Part shown: one piece after another, positions 18,880-27,350 of the stretch
How the letters are laid out: each line of letters opens with the position of its first letter
How positions within the stretch are numbered: the first letter of the stretch is position 1
Origin: Candidatus Aerophobetes bacterium Ae_b3b
GTDB taxonomy: Bacteria; Aerophobota; Aerophobia; Aerophobales; AE-B3A
Assembly: GCA_005223085.1 (NCBI GenBank)
Contig: NJBP01000018.1
Span: 1 to 34,376, forward strand
Direction: 5' to 3'
Length of the DNA: 34,376 nucleotides
Translations under genes and position numbers: made by a program
Notes under the pieces: generated by a model
Seen by the model: the letters and a program-made list of their open reading frames with translations, nothing else
The model's database searches: none
What the model was told of the DNA's origin: nothing

Positions 18880-19680
18880 TCAATCGAAGCTTGTTGCCCG
18901 GGCTAATCTTTCGGCGAAAGTACCCACTTCGCTTAGCAGGTTTTTGCTGTCCCCATATTTTTCTATTCTTTTAACAATGGCACTGCCCACAATTACTGCG
19001 TCGGCTAAAGAAGCAGCTTTTTGGGCTGATGAGGCTGAGGAAATCCCAAATCCTATCCCGATAGGCTTTGAGGTAAGCCCGCGGATCTTACTTATCAATT
19101 CTTTTAGATCCTGTTCTCCTTTTCTCTCATCGCCAGTTATGCCGGTATAAGAGACACAGTAGATAAATCCTGTACTAGAGGCTGAGACCAGTTTTATCCT
19201 CTCTTCCGAGCTAACCGGGGTAAGGAGAAAGATGAGGTCAAGGCCATTTTTATCCGCCTCCTTTTTTAGATCATTGGCCTCCTCAGGGGGAAGATCGGCA
19301 ACTATTAATCCATCGAGGCCTGCCTGAGAGCATCTTTTTACAAATTCTGCTTCCCCGAATTTAAAAATGGGGTTGTAATATCCCATTAGAATGAGGGGAA
19401 TTTCTGTCTTTTGGCGCAGTTCTCTAACTAATTCCAGAATTTTAAGAAGAGAAATTCCTTCCTTTAACGCTCTTTGAGAAGATCTTTGAATTACCGGCCC
19501 GTCGGCAATGGGATCAGAGAAGGGAACCCCTAGCTCTATGGCATCTGCTCCTCTTTTCTCCAGTTCCAATACTAAAGATTTGGTGAGGTCTAAATTGGGA
19601 TCCCCGGCCGTTATAAAGGGGATAAAAGCCTTTTTTCCTTCATATTTTAGTTTTTTAAACCTTGCCTCGAGGCGACTCAT
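18880..19680 (-). CDS. trpA: Tryptophan synthase alpha chain
   Basis: A 266-residue TIM-barrel subunit that splits indole-3-glycerol phosphate into indole and glyceraldehyde 3-phosphate and channels indole to TrpB. Catalytic E49 ([12 protein letters not shown]) and D60 (PIADGPVIQ) fall at the same numbers as in the enteric enzyme. Loop [24 protein letters not shown] and the phosphate loop GFGISSA are present. The ATG overlaps the trpB stop by 4 nt. It is the last gene of the operon; the 107 bp to the convergent neighbour hold only a weak 5-bp hairpin. Confidence 0.97.
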
Positions 19681-20858
19681 TTCTTACTCACTTCCTCCAG
19701 ATCTTTGTCCCCCCTTCCCGAAAGATTAACTATCACGATTTCATCTCGATTCAGCCCAGGGGCAAGCCTCTTGAGGTAGGCAATGGCATGGGCGCTTTCT
19801 AAGGCGGGAATGATTCCCTCTATCTGGGAAAGCCATCGAAAAGCCTCTAATGCGTCACTATCGGTAACCGTATAGTATTTAACTCTGCCACTTTTCTTAA
19901 GGTAGGAATGCTCTGGGCCGACCCCCGGATAGTCCAGTCCGGGGGCTACTGAATGGGTAGAGCGAATCTGACCATTTCTATCCTGCAGAAGATAACTTTT
20001 GCTTCCATGAAGCACTCCAATGCTTCCCTTGGCTAAAGTTGCTCCATGGCGAGGGGTTGATAGCCCTAATCCCCCTGCTTCGATTCCGATAAGCTCCACC
20101 TCCTCCTCCAAAAAAGGATAGAAAAGTCCGAGGGAGTTACTTCCTCCACCCACGCAGGCAAGTAAATAGCCGGGGAGTTTTTTTTCTTTAGCTAAAATTT
20201 GATGCTTGGTTTCTTTTCCGATGACCGACTGAAAATCACGCACCATCATAGGGTAAGGGTGAGGACCTACTACTGAGCCTAAGACATAATAGGTGCTTCT
20301 TATATTGGTTACCCAATCTCTCATAGCCTCGTTGATAGCCTCCTTTAAGGTGCAGCTTCCAGAAGATACCGGTATCACTTCCGCTCCTAAAAGTTTCATT
20401 CTCGATACGTTGAGCCTCTGGCGCCGGATATCCTCATCTCCCATATATACCTGGCAGGGTAGGCCTAAAACAGCTGCTGCTGTGGCGGTGGCCACTCCAT
20501 GCTGACCGGCTCCGGTTTCAGCAATGATACGGGTTTTACCCATTTTTGTTGCCAATAATACCTGTCCCAGGGTGTTATTAATCTTGTGGGCGCCCGTATG
20601 GGCTAAATCCTCTCTTTTTAGATAAACCTTGGCTCCCTTTAAATCATGGGTTAATCTCTCAGCGAAATACAATGGGGTAGGACGACCAGCATAATCTCTA
20701 AGATATAGTTCCAGTTCGGCCTGAAAGCCATTTTTATCTTTTTTTGCCTCCAGATAGGCCTCTTCCAGCTCGTGCAAAGCCGGCATCACCGTCTCTGGGA
20801 CAAACTTTCCTCCGAACTCCCCAAAATGTCCCTTTTTGTCTGGGAAATAATAATTCAT
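19677..20858 (-). CDS. trpB: Tryptophan synthase beta chain (TrpB1)
   Basis: A 393-residue PLP enzyme that joins indole and serine to form tryptophan. PLP Lys is K92 in [13 protein letters not shown], with the phosphate-binding loop [11 protein letters not shown] and the catalytic-Glu segment LIGIEAGG. It is the canonical TrpB that partners TrpA, and the two genes overlap by 4 nt. A second, TrpB2-type, paralogue leads the same operon (25435-26787). Confidence 0.98.
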
Positions 20859-21469
20859 CCTGCCTTCCGTACCATCTTCACCAGCCTCTCCAGTTTTCCA
20901 TAATCCTTCTTTCCTTCTTTTGATTCCACCCCGCTACCTACATCCACTGCGTAGGGCCTAACCTCACTTATTGCTCTGGCAACATTGTCCGGATTTAGAC
21001 CGCCGGAGAGAATAAGGGGAACCCCAATCCCCTTGACCCTCCCGGCAATTTCCCAGTTGAAAGTTTTTCCTGTTCCTCCTGGCCTGCCCCGAAGATAGGT
21101 ATCCAGAAGGTATGCGTCCACTTTATAGCTCACAGCTTTTTCTAGTACGCTCTCGTCCTTAACCCGAAATGATTTTATGACTTTTTGCCTGAACCCCTGG
21201 CAATAGGCGGGGGATTCTTCTCCGTGAAATTGTAGAGTGGTTAGGCTACATAGATCTGCTATTTCCTTCACTTTTTCCTTATCCTCATCGACAAAAACCC
21301 CTACCGTGGAAACAAAAGGGGGAAGAAATTTAACAATCTTGCATACTACCTCAGGCCCCACTCTTCTGGGACTTTCAGCGAAGATAAAGCCTAAAGCGTC
21401 GACTTTTAAATCTGCTGCCCACAGGGCATCCTCTTTGTTGGTTATTCCACAGATCTTAATGAGGGTCAT
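20855..21469 (-). CDS. trpF: Phosphoribosylanthranilate isomerase
   Basis: 204 residues, carrying out the Amadori isomerisation of PRA to CdRP. Catalytic Cys is in [13 protein letters not shown] (C7); catalytic Asp is in [30 protein letters not shown] and the phosphate loop [10 protein letters not shown] with VDVGSGVES complete the barrel. It overlaps trpC at its start (14 nt) and trpB at its end (4 nt), so it is a separate gene, not a TrpCF fusion. Confidence 0.97.
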
Positions 21470-22241
21470 TTCCTAAAAGCTTCTTTAGCTTTTTGCCTAT
21501 ATTTTCACTTCTCAGTAAGCTCTCACCTATCAAAAAAGCATCTACTCCTGACTTTTTTAATCTTTCAATATCTTTTTCATTTTTAATCCCGCTTTCGCTC
21601 ACCACGATCTTATGAGTCGGGATCTTTTGCATAAGGTCAAAAGTAACTCCTAGATCCACTTTAAGAGTTTGAAGGTCACGGTTATTAATACCAATAATAT
21701 GCGCGGGAAGATCCTTAATCTTCTGCCACTCCTCTTCCCGGTGAATCTCCACCAGGCAGTGCATATCTAGTTCTTGGGCCAAATCCAAATAACTTCTTAA
21801 CTTTTCTCTTTCCAGGATGGAAGCAATTAAAAGAACAGCATCGGCTCCCAGAGCTCTTGCCTCGTAAATTTGATACTCGTCTATGATGAACTCCTTGGCT
21901 AGTATGGGTAAGGAGCTAACTTTTCTAACCTCGACTATATTCTTTAGGTCTCCTCCAAAAAACCTGCGATCAATCAGTATGGAGATAGCTGAGGCACCGT
22001 GTTTCTCATAGATCCTGGCTAATTTCCCAGGATTAAAATCTCTCACTAGAGTCCCGGCTGAGGGGGAGAATTGCTTAATTTCAGCAATGATATTAGTTTT
22101 TCCCCGACATGAGATACTTTCTTTGAAATTATTACCCTGAGCCTCATCAGTTATTCTTGATTTTAGAGCCTCTAAAGGAACTTTTCTTTTTCGCTTCCTC
22201 ACTTCCCTTATTTTATTTTCTAATATCCTTGATAAGAGCAA
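21456..22241 (-). CDS. trpC: Indole-3-glycerol phosphate synthase
   Basis: 261 residues closing the indole ring from CdRP. Motifs: NIIAEIKQFSPSAGTL with the catalytic Lys, SILIDRRFFGGDL, LAKEFIIDEYQIYEARALGA, CLVEIHREEEW, GINNRDLQTLKVD and VSESGIKNEKDIERL with VDAFLIGESL. Length is normal. The gene starts 14 nt after trpD. Confidence 0.97.
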   Translation of the reverse strand: MLLSRILENKIREVRKRKRKVPLEALKSRITDEAQGNNFKESISCRGKTNIIAEIKQFSPSAGTLVRDFNPGKLARIYEKHGASAISILIDRRFFGGDLKNIVEVRKVSSLPILAKEFIIDEYQIYEARALGADAVLLIASILEREKLRSYLDLAQELDMHCLVEIHREEEWQKIKDLPAHIIGINNRDLQTLKVDLGVTFDLMQKIPTHKIVVSESGIKNEKDIERLKKSGVDAFLIGESLLRSENIGKKLKKLLGNDPH

Positions 22242-22255
22242 AAAATTCCTCTCTT

Positions 22256-23272
22256 TTAATTGCGGGTAAAATCAATCAACGCTTCCAGTTTCTTTTTAGC
22301 CCTTCCTGAGTCAATAGAATTTGCCGCTATCTGGACTCCTTGCTCCAGATCTTTAGCTAGGTCTGCCGCTACCAGACAGGCAGCAGCATTAATGAGGACA
22401 ATCTCTCTTTTGGACCCCTTGGCACCTTCGAGAATATCTTTGAAGATGCGAGCGTTTTCTTGTCTTGTGCCTCCACGTATTTCATCGAGACAAGCTCTTT
22501 TTATCCCAAAATCCTCAGGCTGAACATAGTAGGTGTTTATTTTGTTCTCCTTAAGCTGAGTTATTTTTGTTCTTCCACTAATGCTAATCTCATCAAGTCC
22601 ATCCTCTCCCCAGACAACGAAGGCGCCCTTCACCTCTAGGTTTCTTAATACTCTGGCTAAGGGCTCGGTTAAAGAGGGCTGGTAGACACCCAAAAGGCGG
22701 ACGTTGGCTCCCAGGGGATTGGTAAGGGGACCGAGGATGTTAAAGACTGTTCTAATCCCCATCTCCTGTCGGGGCGAAAGGGCATATTTCATAGCTGGGT
22801 GAAATGAGGGAGCAAAAAGAAAGCTGATTCCTACTTTGTCCAGGCACTCCCTCACCTTTTCTTTGGATACAGTTAATTTTACCCCTAAAGTTTCCAGAAC
22901 GTCGGCACTACCACATTGGCTGGAAAGAGCCCGGTTGCCATGTTTGGCTACCACCAGGCCTGCTCCCACTGCAACAAAGGCAACCACTGTGGAAATATTG
23001 AAGGTATTAAGGCTATCTCCCCCGGTGCCGCAAGTATCGACTAAGGTGTCCCTTTCCAGACTGAAAGTATCAACTTTTTCTTGCATAGCTTTGGCAAAAC
23101 CAGTAATCTCCTCTACCGTCTCGCCCTTCATTCTAAGAGCAGTAAGGAATGAGGCAATCTGAGCGGCAGTAGCTTTCCCCTCCATTATTATATTCATAGC
23201 TTTTCTTGCCTGTGGTTCTGTTAAGTTGTTGCCTTCCGCCAGGATTTTTAAAGTCTTCTTGATCATTTCCAC
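22256..23272 (-). CDS. trpD: Anthranilate phosphoribosyltransferase
   Basis: 338 residues; transfers phosphoribose from PRPP to anthranilate. The PRPP-binding motif is DTCGTGGDSLNTFNIST; KHGNRALSSQCGSADVLE, the Mg-site Asp-Glu pair in GEDGLDEIS and the NPLGA loop are present. It is not fused to trpG, which lies 10 nt upstream as a separate gene. Confidence 0.97.
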   Translation of the reverse strand: MEMIKKTLKILAEGNNLTEPQARKAMNIIMEGKATAAQIASFLTALRMKGETVEEITGFAKAMQEKVDTFSLERDTLVDTCGTGGDSLNTFNISTVVAFVAVGAGLVVAKHGNRALSSQCGSADVLETLGVKLTVSKEKVRECLDKVGISFLFAPSFHPAMKYALSPRQEMGIRTVFNILGPLTNPLGANVRLLGVYQPSLTEPLARVLRNLEVKGAFVVWGEDGLDEISISGRTKITQLKENKINTYYVQPEDFGIKRACLDEIRGGTRQENARIFKDILEGAKGSKREIVLINAAACLVAADLAKDLEQGVQIAANSIDSGRAKKKLEALIDFTRN

Positions 23273-23282
23273 TCCCAGCCGT

Positions 23283-23885
23283 TCAAATTGGAATTTGCCA
23301 GGTTCTGAGATGTATACATTCTATAAGATTAAGGAAATTCTTCAACAGCGCCTTGCCTGCCTTGGTTAATATGGATTCAGGATGAAACTGCATTCCAAAG
23401 ACAGGGTACTCCCGGTGTCGGACGCCCATAATCTCGTCTTTGCCAGTCCAGGCAGTTTTTACCAGACAGGTGGGTAGGCTATCATTTTTAATGATCAAGG
23501 AGTGATAGCGGGTAGCCACAAAAGGATTCTCCACTCCTTGGTAGATATCTTTTCCATAGTGGTGGATAAGCGAGGTTTTTCCATGCATCAAATTTTCTGA
23601 CAACACAATTCTTGCCCCAAAGACTTGCCCAATACACTGATGGCCCAGACAAACCCCTAGAATGGGTAGTCGGGGCGCAAAATATTCTACTATCCTGTTA
23701 GACATCCCGGCCTCTTCCGGTCTACCCGGACCAGGTGAGATGAGGATACTTTCCGGTTTTTTCCTTTCTATCTCTTTCAGGCTAAGGTAATCATTTCGGT
23801 AGACTTCGGTTCTTTTCCCCAACTCTCCTAGATATTGGACCAGATTATACACAAATGAGTCGTAGTTATCTATTACCAGAATCAT
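23283..23885 (-). CDS. trpG: Anthranilate synthase component II, glutamine amidotransferase
   Basis: A 200-residue class I amidotransferase that feeds ammonia to TrpE. Catalytic triad: nucleophile C79 in LGVCLGHQCIGQ, and His/Glu in GMQFHPESILT; oxyanion loop SPGPGRPEEAG. The ATG overlaps the trpE stop by 4 nt. The same protein may also serve para-aminobenzoate synthesis, as no separate pabA is seen here. Confidence 0.96.
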   Translation of the reverse strand: MILVIDNYDSFVYNLVQYLGELGKRTEVYRNDYLSLKEIERKKPESILISPGPGRPEEAGMSNRIVEYFAPRLPILGVCLGHQCIGQVFGARIVLSENLMHGKTSLIHHYGKDIYQGVENPFVATRYHSLIIKNDSLPTCLVKTAWTGKDEIMGVRHREYPVFGMQFHPESILTKAGKALLKNFLNLIECIHLRTWQIPI

Positions 23886-25381
23886 TCTATCCCCTCTTCA
23901 GCTAGCTCGATCGCCTTGATGAGGGCTTGGGCCTTATTTAGTGTCTCTTGGTATTCGGACCGAGGATTAGAATCAGCGACAATTCCTGCTCCTGCCTGGA
24001 CATAGGCAAATCCATCTTTGATGAGGATGGTACGAATTATGATACAGGTATCCAGATTTCCCGTGAAACTAAAGTATCCTAAGGATCCGGCATAGGGACC
24101 TCGTTTACAGGGCTCAATTTCTTCGATAATTTCCATGGCTCTTATCTTAGGGGCTCCAGAGACAGTCCCGGCGGGAAAACTTGCTCTCAGAAGATCGTAT
24201 TGATCCATCTCTTTTCTTAATTTTCCCTCAACGTGGGAGACAAGATGCATGACATGAGAATATTTTTCGATGCCTAATAATTCGGTGACTTTTACGGTGC
24301 CACTTTCACAAACCCGGCCCAGATCATTACGGCCCAGATCTACCAGCATTATATGTTCCGCTCTTTCTTTGGGGTCGGCCAGAAGTTCCTGGGCTAGACG
24401 CTCATCTTCGGCCTCATTTCTTCCCCTGGGCCTGGTTCCGGCAATGGGCCGCAGGATAACCTCATCTTTCTCTTTTCTTACCAGAATCTCCGGAGAGCTT
24501 CCTATTATCTGGAAATCCCCGCATTTTAGATAATACATATAGGGAGAAGGATTAAGAGATCTTAAACAACGATAAATATCAAAGGGGGAAGTATTTACTT
24601 TTCTCTTTAACCTTTGAGACAGAACTACTTGAAACGCATCACCCCGTTTTATATATTTCTTGGCTTTTTTTACTCCCTCCATAAAAAGCTGTGGAGTAAG
24701 GTTAGACTGAATATCAGTCTTTTTTTTCCTTTGGGTGTACTTCAGACTGGTAGAGGAACCAGAGGGAAGAGGATTTTTTAGTCTAGCAACTACTTCTTCT
24801 ATCCTTTGCTTGGTCTTTTCATAGGTCAGGTGAGTGGGTTCTTTCCCATCTAAAAAGGCATGAGAGACAATCTTTATCTTATGATCGATATGATCAAATA
24901 TGAGCAGGGTATCGCTGAGCATAAACAAACTATCGGGAAAACCTAGATCATCCTTGTTTAACGGGGGAATCTTTTCCCAGAAGCGTATCATATCATAGCC
25001 TAGATAGCCTACCGCTCCCCCCGAAAAACGGGGCAGGCCGGGAAGATTAACTACCTTGAACCTTCCTATGATCTTCTTTAGGTTGTGCAAAGGGTCCTTC
25101 TGGCAGGTTAAAGCAATATTTTTCCCCTTTTCTATTATGTGGATTTTTTTCCCTTTACTTTTGAAGATTATTCCCGACCCGCTCCCTAAAAAAGAGTATC
25201 TTCCTAATCTTTCTCCTTTTTCCACACTTTCTAAAAGATAGGAAAATTCCCCCTCATCGAGTTTCTTAAAGGCCGATACCGGTGTCTCCAGATCGGCGAG
25301 AATTTCTCGATAAACCGGGATCAAATTCCCTTTCTTAGATAACTTTTTAAATTCCTCTTCTTGCGGGTAATACAATTTCAT
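23882..25381 (-). CDS. trpE: Anthranilate synthase component I
   Basis: 499 residues; converts chorismate to anthranilate. The N-terminal LLES motif (49-52), which binds tryptophan for feedback inhibition, is intact. The C-terminal chorismate-binding domain has GSSPEILVR, IAGTRPRGRNEAED, SHVEGKL and PAGTVSGAPKIRAMEII. So the enzyme is probably feedback-inhibited as well as controlled at RNA level by TRAP. AAAGG lies close to the ATG, inside the palindrome CCTTTAAAGG. Confidence 0.97.
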   Translation of the reverse strand: MKLYYPQEEEFKKLSKKGNLIPVYREILADLETPVSAFKKLDEGEFSYLLESVEKGERLGRYSFLGSGSGIIFKSKGKKIHIIEKGKNIALTCQKDPLHNLKKIIGRFKVVNLPGLPRFSGGAVGYLGYDMIRFWEKIPPLNKDDLGFPDSLFMLSDTLLIFDHIDHKIKIVSHAFLDGKEPTHLTYEKTKQRIEEVVARLKNPLPSGSSTSLKYTQRKKKTDIQSNLTPQLFMEGVKKAKKYIKRGDAFQVVLSQRLKRKVNTSPFDIYRCLRSLNPSPYMYYLKCGDFQIIGSSPEILVRKEKDEVILRPIAGTRPRGRNEAEDERLAQELLADPKERAEHIMLVDLGRNDLGRVCESGTVKVTELLGIEKYSHVMHLVSHVEGKLRKEMDQYDLLRASFPAGTVSGAPKIRAMEIIEEIEPCKRGPYAGSLGYFSFTGNLDTCIIIRTILIKDGFAYVQAGAGIVADSNPRSEYQETLNKAQALIKAIELAEEGIE

Positions 25382-25407: not shown

Positions 25408-25436
25408 AGAGGAGGATTTCCCCTGGTGACTCCTCT
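25408..25436 (-). other. Hairpin in the trpB2-trpE junction
   Basis: AGAGGAG (25436-25430 on the minus strand) and CTCCTCT (25414-25408) form a 7-bp stem with a 15-base loop, beginning inside the trpB2 stop region. There is no U-tract, so it is not a classical terminator; it could be an mRNA processing or stability element separating trpB2 from trpE. Confidence 0.35.
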
Positions 25437-26787
25437 AACTTTCCTTTATCTCAGGTAGCGACTTTAGTGCTTCTTCGATTTTTTCCTGTGGATATTTGTA
25501 GTCCTCCAGTTTGCCTTCAAAATAAGCCTGGTAGGCGCCTAGGTCAAAGTAACCATGGCCAGAATGATTGAAGACAATTACCGTCCCTGGCTTGGCTTTT
25601 TTTGCCTCTTCGATTACCGCTTTGGTAGCATGGGCTGTCTCGGGTGCTGGCAGAAATCCTTCTGTCTGAGCGAACAGCAAAGCCGCCTCGAATACCTCTT
25701 TCTGGTGATAAGCCTGCGCCTCCATTAGCCCTAATTTCAGTAGATGGCAGAGAATAGGTGCATCGCCATGATATCTCAGCCCTCCTGCATGAATAGGAGG
25801 AGGAACAAAAGAGTGTCCCAGAGTAAACATCTTCACTACCGGTCCCGTTCCAGCCGTATCTCCAAAATCATACTTATATGGACCTCTAGTAAGACTAGGA
25901 CAGGCCGTGGGTTCTACGGCTATAAACCTTATCTTCTCACCGGCAAGTTTCCTGGGAAAGAAGGGAAGAAAGAAGCCACCAAAGTTACTTCCTCCTCCTA
26001 CACAGCCAATCATTATATCTGGCTTTTCTCCCGCTTTCTCTAGTTGTTTTTCCACCTCTAGGCCCACGATAGTTTGATGAAGAAGAACGTGATTCACCAC
26101 GCTTCCTATGGAGTATTTGGTATCTTCATGAGTCGCTGCATCTTCTATTGCCTCGGATATGGCAATTCCCAAACTACCAAGGCAGTCTGGATCTTCCTCT
26201 GAGACTTTTCTGCCGAAATTTGTCCTATTGGAGGGAGAGCGAAACATCTCTGCTCCCCAGCTTTGAGCCAAGAGCCTTCTGTAAGGTTTTTGGTCGTAAC
26301 TTATCCCTACCATATAGACAGTGCATTCTAGTCCGAACATCTTACATGCAAAAGCTAAGGCGCTTCCCCATTGGCCAGCTCCGGTCTCGGTAGCCAGTCT
26401 CTTAATCCCTTCTTTCTTGTTGTAATAGGCCTGGGCAATGGCTGTATTCGGCTTGTGAGAACCTGGTGGGGATAGGGATTCATCTTTATAATATATTTTC
26501 GCCGAGGTTCCTATGGCCTCCTCCAGCCGATAGGCTCTGCGTAAAGGAGTGGGGCGGTATTGAGTATACACCTTTAGTACTTCCTCAGGTATCTCAATGC
26601 GAGGTTGGGAAGACATCTCCTGCTCAATACAAGCCATGGGGAAGATTGGCAAAAGATCTTCTGGAACTAGCGGCTTCTTAGTGCCAGGGTGTAGTTCCGG
26701 GGGTAGGGACCCTGGTAAATCTGGTAGTACATTGTACCATGCTTGGGGCATTTCCCTTTCTTCCAGTAAAATCTTTTTTTCAGTCAT
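25435..26787 (-). CDS. TrpB2-type (TrpB-like) pyridoxal-phosphate enzyme
   Basis: 450 residues of the TrpB2 branch (COG1350), which is longer than TrpB1 and has an N-terminal extension ([20 protein letters not shown]). PLP Lys is K112 in [42 protein letters not shown] and [11 protein letters not shown] follow. TrpB2 enzymes make tryptophan from serine, or phosphoserine in some archaea, and indole, often without TrpA; they are thought to salvage free indole. Here it is the first structural gene behind the TRAP leader, with a full trpB/trpA pair at the far end. AAGGAG lies 8 nt before the ATG. Confidence 0.94.
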
Positions 26788-26809: not shown

Positions 26810-27034
26810 TTTTTCTTCTGTTTTCTTCGGACTATCAGTCCTTTTTTCTCTCCAAATAAATATCTGGCTTTCTCCTTGCCTCTTGGACAACCTCTTTCTT
26901 ATTCTGACATATCCTCTCCTGGTCTTTTTAATTTTTCCTCAAATTTTCTCCCTGTTTTAATCCCTCTTTGCTAGCAGGATATTTCCAATAAAAAAACCGA
27001 GCAGGAAGCCCGATTTTAAAAAATATCCACTCAC
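26810..27034 (-). pseudogene. Possible decayed YtxH-like small protein in the trp leader
   Basis: Minus-strand codons 27034-26957 spell VSGYFLKSGFLLGFFIGNIL then LAKRD and a stop, like the Gly-rich membrane head of YtxH-domain proteins. Downstream, other frames give charged helical stretches (TGRKFEEKLKRPGED, KEKARYLFGEKKG). Switching frames restores a head-plus-coiled-coil plan. The same bases carry the GAG-repeat site and terminator, and the region is purine-rich, so the similarity may be accidental. Listed with low confidence; the regulatory reading is stronger. Confidence 0.25.
26990..27017 (-). terminator. Attenuator terminator of the trp leader
   Basis: On the minus strand TCGGGC, loop TTCCT and GCTCGG form a 6-bp stem (27013-26997, two G-U pairs), extendable by AAAA-UUUU pairing, followed by seven U residues (26996-26990). 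It lies 60-80 bases after the mtrB stop and about 200 bases before trpB2. Alone it would end transcription after mtrB. The upstream GAG segment can compete for its loop and 3' arm (see regulatory site and findings). Confidence 0.65.
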
Positions 27035-27063
27035 CTCCTCTCGTCTCAAGCTTATCTCGTCTT
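27025..27063 (-). promoter_or_regulatory. TRAP-binding site: GAG/AAG triplet array in the trp leader
   Basis: Reading the minus strand from 27063: AAG-ac-GAG-at-AAG-ctt-GAG-ac-GAG-ag-GAG-gt-GAG-tg-GAT. That is seven NAG triplets and one GAT with spacers of 2,2,3,2,2,2,2 bases. TRAP binds up to 11 (G/U/A)AG triplets spaced by 2-3 nt, so the register fits what is known from Bacillus subtilis. It starts 15 bases after the mtrB stop. The segment CGAG-A-GGAGG (27043-27034) can pair with 27008-26998 (nine pairs around a small internal loop), which would form an antiterminator. Confidence 0.8.
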
Positions 27064-27077
27064 TAAAGATTTAGAAA

Positions 27078-27305
27078 TTACTTACCGGATTGTACTTTTC
27101 CATACCGGGAAAAGATCTCCGCTTTACCTCTTATCTTGATGGCAGATACATGTTCTGTAAACTGACAGAACCAGACCTCACCTTCATCCAATTTCTCGGT
27201 ATGATGAACTGTGGTCTCTTTTCCTCGAGTTAAGCCAATGATGGTTACCCCGTTTTCTAGCGCTTTCACTACCATAAAATCAGCTTGCACTATTTCTTCC
27301 ATCAT
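27078..27305 (-). CDS. mtrB: Trp RNA-binding attenuation protein (TRAP)
   Basis: A 75-residue protein, the same length as Bacillus subtilis TRAP, closely similar throughout: DFMVVKALENGVTIIGLTRG, then HHTEKLDEGEVWFCQFTEH and SAIKIRGKAE. With an offset of one, the RNA-binding K37, K56 and R58 of the Bacillus protein are present as K38, K57 and R59; the tryptophan-pocket residues T25, Q47, T49 and S53 as T26, Q48, T50 and S54. It should form an 11-subunit ring that, when loaded with tryptophan, wraps (G/U)AG-repeat RNA. Such repeats begin 15 nt after its stop codon, ahead of the trp genes. It has its own strong promoter. No mtrA/folE is adjacent, unlike B. subtilis. Either of two ATGs (27305, 27302) may start it. 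Confidence 0.95.
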   Translation of the reverse strand: MMEEIVQADFMVVKALENGVTIIGLTRGKETTVHHTEKLDEGEVWFCQFTEHVSAIKIRGKAEIFSRYGKVQSGK

Positions 27306-27322: not shown

Positions 27323-27350
27323 ATTATAGGAGTTTTTTCTTTCCCGTCAA
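27323..27350 (-). promoter_or_regulatory. Promoter of mtrB and probably of the trp operon
   Basis: TTGACG (27350-27345), 16-base spacer, TATAAT (27328-27323), only 18 bases before the mtrB ATG. It is the strongest consensus-like promoter between rpsI and trpB2; no comparable promoter was found between mtrB and trpB2, which suggests one transcript enters mtrB, the leader and the trp genes. Confidence 0.75.

Follow-up and report, generated by a model that had tools for sequence, protein, structure and literature searches.

A Predicted TRAP-Type Transcription Attenuator between mtrB and the trp Genes in an Aerophobota Operon

Within a 34,376-nucleotide stretch of DNA from Candidatus Aerophobetes bacterium Ae_b3b (contig NJBP01000018.1, analysed whole and termed here the window), gene identification and RNA folding models together point to what is very probably a transcription attenuator under TRAP control, located in an operon where it separates mtrB from the trp genes. 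It would be a variant form of an established mechanism; searches of the open-access literature found no TRAP report for the phylum. For Bacillus subtilis it is disputed whether TRAP only flips an RNA switch or terminates the polymerase itself, and the dispute persists because the attenuator of that species is a weak terminator; the strong terminator and fully competing antiterminator predicted in Aerophobota leaders would therefore let the classical model be tested more cleanly. We give roughly even chances to the broader reading, namely a phylum-wide TRAP regulon outside the Firmicutes with no T-box or stand-alone anti-TRAP detected, in which mtrB lies upstream of its own attenuator (TRAP on, trp off) and the antiterminator takes up almost all of a terminator that is truly intrinsic. 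Such a device would be a plain RNA switch with two states, which B. subtilis itself may lack.

The mtrB-trp Locus

The order on the minus strand is rpsI, promoter, mtrB, leader, terminator, trpB2, trpE, trpG, trpD, trpC, trpF, trpB and trpA:

27787-27398, minus strand, rpsI, the gene upstream of the promoter and mtrB
27323..27350, minus strand, sigma-70-like promoter TTGACG-16-TATAAT for mtrB and the operon (11/12 consensus matches)
27078..27302, minus strand, mtrB, TRAP protein of 74 aa (PF02081)
25435..26787, minus strand, trpB2, TrpB-like PLP enzyme, first gene past the attenuator (TIGR01415, 635.9 bits)
23882..25381, minus strand, trpE (TIGR00564)
23283..23885, minus strand, trpG (TIGR00566)
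22256..23272, minus strand, trpD (TIGR01245)
21456..22241, minus strand, trpC (NF001377)
20855..21469, minus strand, trpF (NF002298)
19677..20858, minus strand, trpB, encoding TrpB1 (TIGR00263)
18880..19680, minus strand, trpA (TIGR00262)

Judged by its sequence, the mtrB directly upstream of the leader is a bona fide TRAP gene. A profile search assigns its product to PF02081 (E 1.7e-36 to 6.9e-36), the match with solved MtrB structures covers 66 residues, and the RNA-binding residues E36, K37, K56 and R58 are present together with D39. Position 32 is V/I, at a site that we take to be Phe in B. subtilis TRAP. Two types of TrpB are encoded in the operon, TrpB2 by the first gene past the attenuator and TrpB1 by the gene beside trpA. 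An Rfam search of the whole window returned zero matches, the T-box family (RF00230) included.

The NAG Array and Two Exclusive Folds

The following elements were located between mtrB and trpB2:

27030..27063, minus strand, TRAP-site-like array AAG GAG AAG GAG GAG GAG GAG with spacers 2,2,3,2,2,2 (best array in the window)
27046..27053, minus strand, 5' strand AAGCUUGA of an alternative early antiterminator, with its partner UCGGGCUU at 27013-27006 (stepwise folding, RNA polymerase at 26996-26990)
27033..27043, minus strand, antiterminator 5' strand CGAGAGGAGGU, within the array (MFE and pair probabilities)
26998..27009, minus strand, antiterminator 3' strand, made of the terminator loop, the 3' arm and the final two bases of the 5' arm (predicted fold)
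26993..27017, minus strand, intrinsic terminator hairpin AAAAUCGGGC-UUCCU-GCUCGGUUUU (-11.4 kcal/mol)
26990..26996, minus strand, terminator run of seven U (read from the sequence)

Counted in register from 27063 to 27030, the array upstream of the trp genes holds seven triplets (five GAG and two AAG) and not the eight given in the earlier note. It had the top score when both strands of the window were scanned; the runner-up (31427-31389, score 9.5, same strand) lies within a coding region and is probably due to chance. Since 2 of 60 versions of the window with shuffled dinucleotides reached the score of the leader array, the array's place in the mtrB/trp interval beside the terminator carries much of the weight. 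TRAP binds RNA stably when there are at least seven (G/U)AG repeats, a threshold that comes from the B. subtilis protein (PMC4027176); only five of the seven triplets here are of this kind, which falls short of it.

The earlier note had paired CGAG-A-GGAGG (27043-27034) with 27008-26998, and all nine pairs are present: C27043-G26998, G27042-C26999, A27041-U27000 and G27040-C27001, followed by G27038-C27004, G27037-C27005, A27036-U27006, G27035.U27007 and G27034-C27008. Adding A27039-U27003 and U27033.G27009 gives a helix of eleven pairs, contiguous save for one bulge, and lowers the energy from -8.2 to -13.8 kcal/mol, against -11.4 kcal/mol for the ten-pair terminator hairpin. The description of 27008-26998 as loop and 3' arm of the terminator is essentially correct, the segment also taking in the final base of the 5' arm. 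The terminator, with its GC-rich core, strong stem and U7 without interruption, looks intrinsically competent in the model. Of the 15 bases in the terminator core, the antiterminator 3' strand occupies 12. The predicted antiterminator and terminator are mutually exclusive, with one antiterminator strand inside the array.

The MFE structure of the whole free leader (-16.8 kcal/mol) is the antiterminator fold, and the best fold with the terminator forced reaches -14.2 kcal/mol. An antiterminator much weaker than the terminator under all conditions, named in the earlier note as a refuting result, is clearly not what the folds show. The terminator accounts for 0.01 of the free ensemble and the nine-pair helix for approximately 0.68. 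When the triplets are blocked to mimic TRAP, the terminator rises from 0.01 to 1.00 of the ensemble, and the best fold makes an identical switch when computed for 50 or 60 C; the proposal that TRAP frees the terminator by sequestering the GAG side is thus borne out in the predicted folds. In stepwise folding, with 10 nt hidden within the polymerase, the AAGCUUGA/UCGGGCUU antiterminator forms first and is displaced by the 27043-27033 helix upon emergence of the 3' arm; once the terminator 5' arm is out, the best fold is an antiterminator at all lengths and never the terminator.

Proposed Mechanism

The computations show what the genes are, that the two folds exclude each other, how triplet blocking shifts the balance between them and that the arrangement recurs in relatives; from there we infer TRAP binding, tryptophan dependence, actual termination and co-transcription from the mtrB promoter. 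Transcription would start upstream of mtrB. With tryptophan scarce, the GAG-rich RNA would be free to pair with the emerging terminator, initially through AAGCUUGA with UCGGGCUU and later through CGAGAGGAGGU with the terminator loop and 3' arm, and the antiterminator so formed would let RNA polymerase continue into trpB2-trpEGDCFBA. With tryptophan plentiful, Trp-bound TRAP would wrap the triplets at 27063-27030 and sequester the antiterminator strand; the terminator hairpin would then form and stop transcription, leaving an mRNA that codes for TRAP alone. With mtrB placed ahead of the attenuator within one operon, attenuation would keep TRAP on and the trp genes silent.

Homologous Leaders in Aerophobota

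Homologous or similar leaders precede trpB2 in G001, G002 and G007, trpE in G003, G004, G005, G008, G010, G012, G013 and G014, and a Trp-type ABC transporter beside mtrB in G004; in G011 the leader follows mtrB. The trpB2 leader of G007 was retrieved with an RNA model built from the leaders (E 1e-10). Of the homologous set (G002, G003/G008, G004 at two sites, G005 and G013), most are not next to mtrB. This recurrence of array and terminator in most relatives before trpB2, trpE or a Trp-type ABC transporter, together with the mtrB directly upstream in the window and the fold switch, supports the earlier reading of a TRAP switch.

The free terminator probability is below 0.06 in the window and in G002, G003, G004 (both sites), G005 and G008, and rises to at least 0.99 upon blocking. 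However, the antiterminator is not universal, because the terminator already dominates without TRAP in G001 (1.00), G010 (0.88), G014 (1.00) and G007 (0.71); by these folding models it is present in most, not all, leaders.

Chance pairing was assessed by permuting the spacers alone, with triplets and terminator held fixed. The window leader by itself gave p 0.076 (duplex energy) and 0.123 (ensemble), not beyond what a GAG array yields by chance, since such an array opposite a pyrimidine-rich loop pairs easily. Nine lineages combined by Fisher's method gave p 7e-6 (duplex) and 1.4e-5 (ensemble), the values being 1.4e-5 and 3.7e-5 without the window leader and 2.7e-5 with G007 added. Support for the predicted antiterminator is thus drawn from the homologous leaders and not from the window leader by itself. 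A swap test, in which the array of one leader was set against the hairpin of another, was uninformative because every GAG array pairs with pyrimidine-rich loops.

In a column alignment of nine leaders, 83% of the cells of a common helix GAUGAGCC:GGCUUAUC are paired, against at most 46% when it is slid; the window helix is one repeat off this register. The compensatory changes called for by the earlier note are found only in a loose form: no pair of the nine-leader alignment has a two-sided change, one-sided ones such as G-C to G-U being the only kind, and pairing is kept through G-U changes and register shifts. The exact window helix is also not kept in the G001 and G007 leaders, which are the closest by operon, both having trpB2 first. 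For these two reasons strict covariation is lacking.

Alternative Explanations

In one alternative, the chief action of TRAP, as suggested for B. subtilis, would be to dislodge RNA polymerase at the U-rich terminator, and the antiterminator pairing would arise without selection, simply because purine-rich triplets lie opposite a pyrimidine-rich loop. The p of just 0.08-0.12 for the window leader and the four related leaders without an effective antiterminator fit this view, and B. subtilis TRAP does terminate in vivo without the attenuator (PMC3913778). We nevertheless consider it unlikely, given that spacers across lineages appear tuned against the free-state terminator (combined p approximately 1e-5), and that the terminator here, unlike that of B. 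subtilis, combines a strong stem with a U run free of interruptions, so that some device for readthrough is needed.

More improbable still is a simple terminator whose role is to insulate mtrB from trpB2, beside a GAG array that is chance purine-rich DNA. Two of 60 shuffled windows do equal the array score and trpB2 could have its own promoter further downstream, but six relatives carry similar arrays before trpE or trpB2 at a distance from any intact mtrB, and the leader RNA model matches before G007 trpB2 at E 1e-10. Attenuation via translation, with the GGAGGUGA stretch as ribosome site of a short leader peptide, is scarcely credible and was rejected: GGAGGUGAGUG is Shine-Dalgarno-like and is followed by GUG, but the spacing is too short and the reading frame has four codons (GUG GAU AUU UUU), includes no Trp and is not conserved in other leaders.

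Comparison with Known TRAP Systems

The attenuator proposed for the window shares with the B. subtilis trp leader a TRAP orthologue, NAG triplets set 2-3 nt apart ahead of the trp genes, an antiterminator 5' strand within the triplets and an overlapping, exclusive terminator. It differs in having seven triplets, two of them AAG, against 11 (G/U)AG, in an operon shared with mtrB upstream of the attenuator, and in trpB2 leading the trp genes. The antiterminator and terminator overlap by only 4 nt (+108 to +111) in B. subtilis (PMC4027176), against the 12 core bases noted above, and the B. subtilis attenuator has been described as a poor intrinsic terminator (PMC3913778), in contrast to the strong stem and uninterrupted U7 here.

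The mtrB-leader-trp order is not unique to Aerophobota, as some Bacillota share it. Their mtrB-leader-(aroF)-trpE loci (Fuchsiella, Frackibacter, L062, L066 and L084) likewise combine mtrB, a GAG/UAG array and trp genes, and the Fuchsiella leader is predicted to undergo an equal fold switch (terminator 0.05 free, 1.00 blocked). Unlike the window, they have 6-13 triplets and aroF or trpE first instead of trpB2; a clear antiterminator was absent in three of the four Bacillota mtrB-leader loci tested.

TRAP in Aerophobota and Its Wider Regulon

The host, an uncultured bacterium, belongs to the candidate phylum Aerophobota. The phylum was sampled with 17 genomes, which are also all those of the host's order and class, and TRAP was found in 11 of them. 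In a tree with Bacillota TRAP, the Aerophobota proteins fall on one side of a weakly supported branch (79/95). No T-box (RF00230) was detected across the 17 genomes, and a family search of the phylum's genomes gave no clear stand-alone anti-TRAP: matches were mostly sub-threshold, in frames of 383-392 codons that we read as DnaJ zinc finger, and the single set above cut-off is a 271-codon frame in G005.

Upstream of the leader in G007:C89, in the place that mtrB takes in the window, lies a possible decayed mtrB remnant (L145, LDAGEVWLSQIEEH; 10/14 residues), for which the DNA-level match was not significant; the intact G007 mtrB sits elsewhere (C3). At L114 (G004:C49), mtrB and an attenuator of the same type are followed by three genes for the binding protein, permease and ATPase of an ABC transporter and not by trp genes.

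A search for five perfect KAG triplets gave little above the reversed control and no clear extra site in the host genome. Further GAG arrays at the starts of transporter and DAHP synthase genes and at LivK-like promoters suggest a wider TRAP regulon with translational sites. At L133 / L146 (G013:C18:6143-6216), UAG-GAG-GAG-GAG-GAG with 2-nt spacers runs into the start codon (AUG) of the gene for the binding protein of a Trp-type ABC transporter; this is likely a translational TRAP site. GAG arrays immediately 5' of the DAHP synthase start codon at L127 (G006:C220:8246-8316) and L137 (G007:C145:4368-4421) likely place the aromatic entry step under TRAP control; the preceding gene is prephenate dehydratase-like. 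The trpP and trpG genes of B. subtilis have TRAP sites of translational type, which the Aerophobota arrays over the starts of the Trp-type transporter gene (G013:C18) and aroF (G006, G007) resemble, these being sites separate from the window attenuator with a putative translational role. NAG arrays also occur right behind the promoters of LivK-like transporter genes at L147 (G014:C39) and L148 (G010:C128), the next gene at L148 being phenylacetate-CoA ligase-like.
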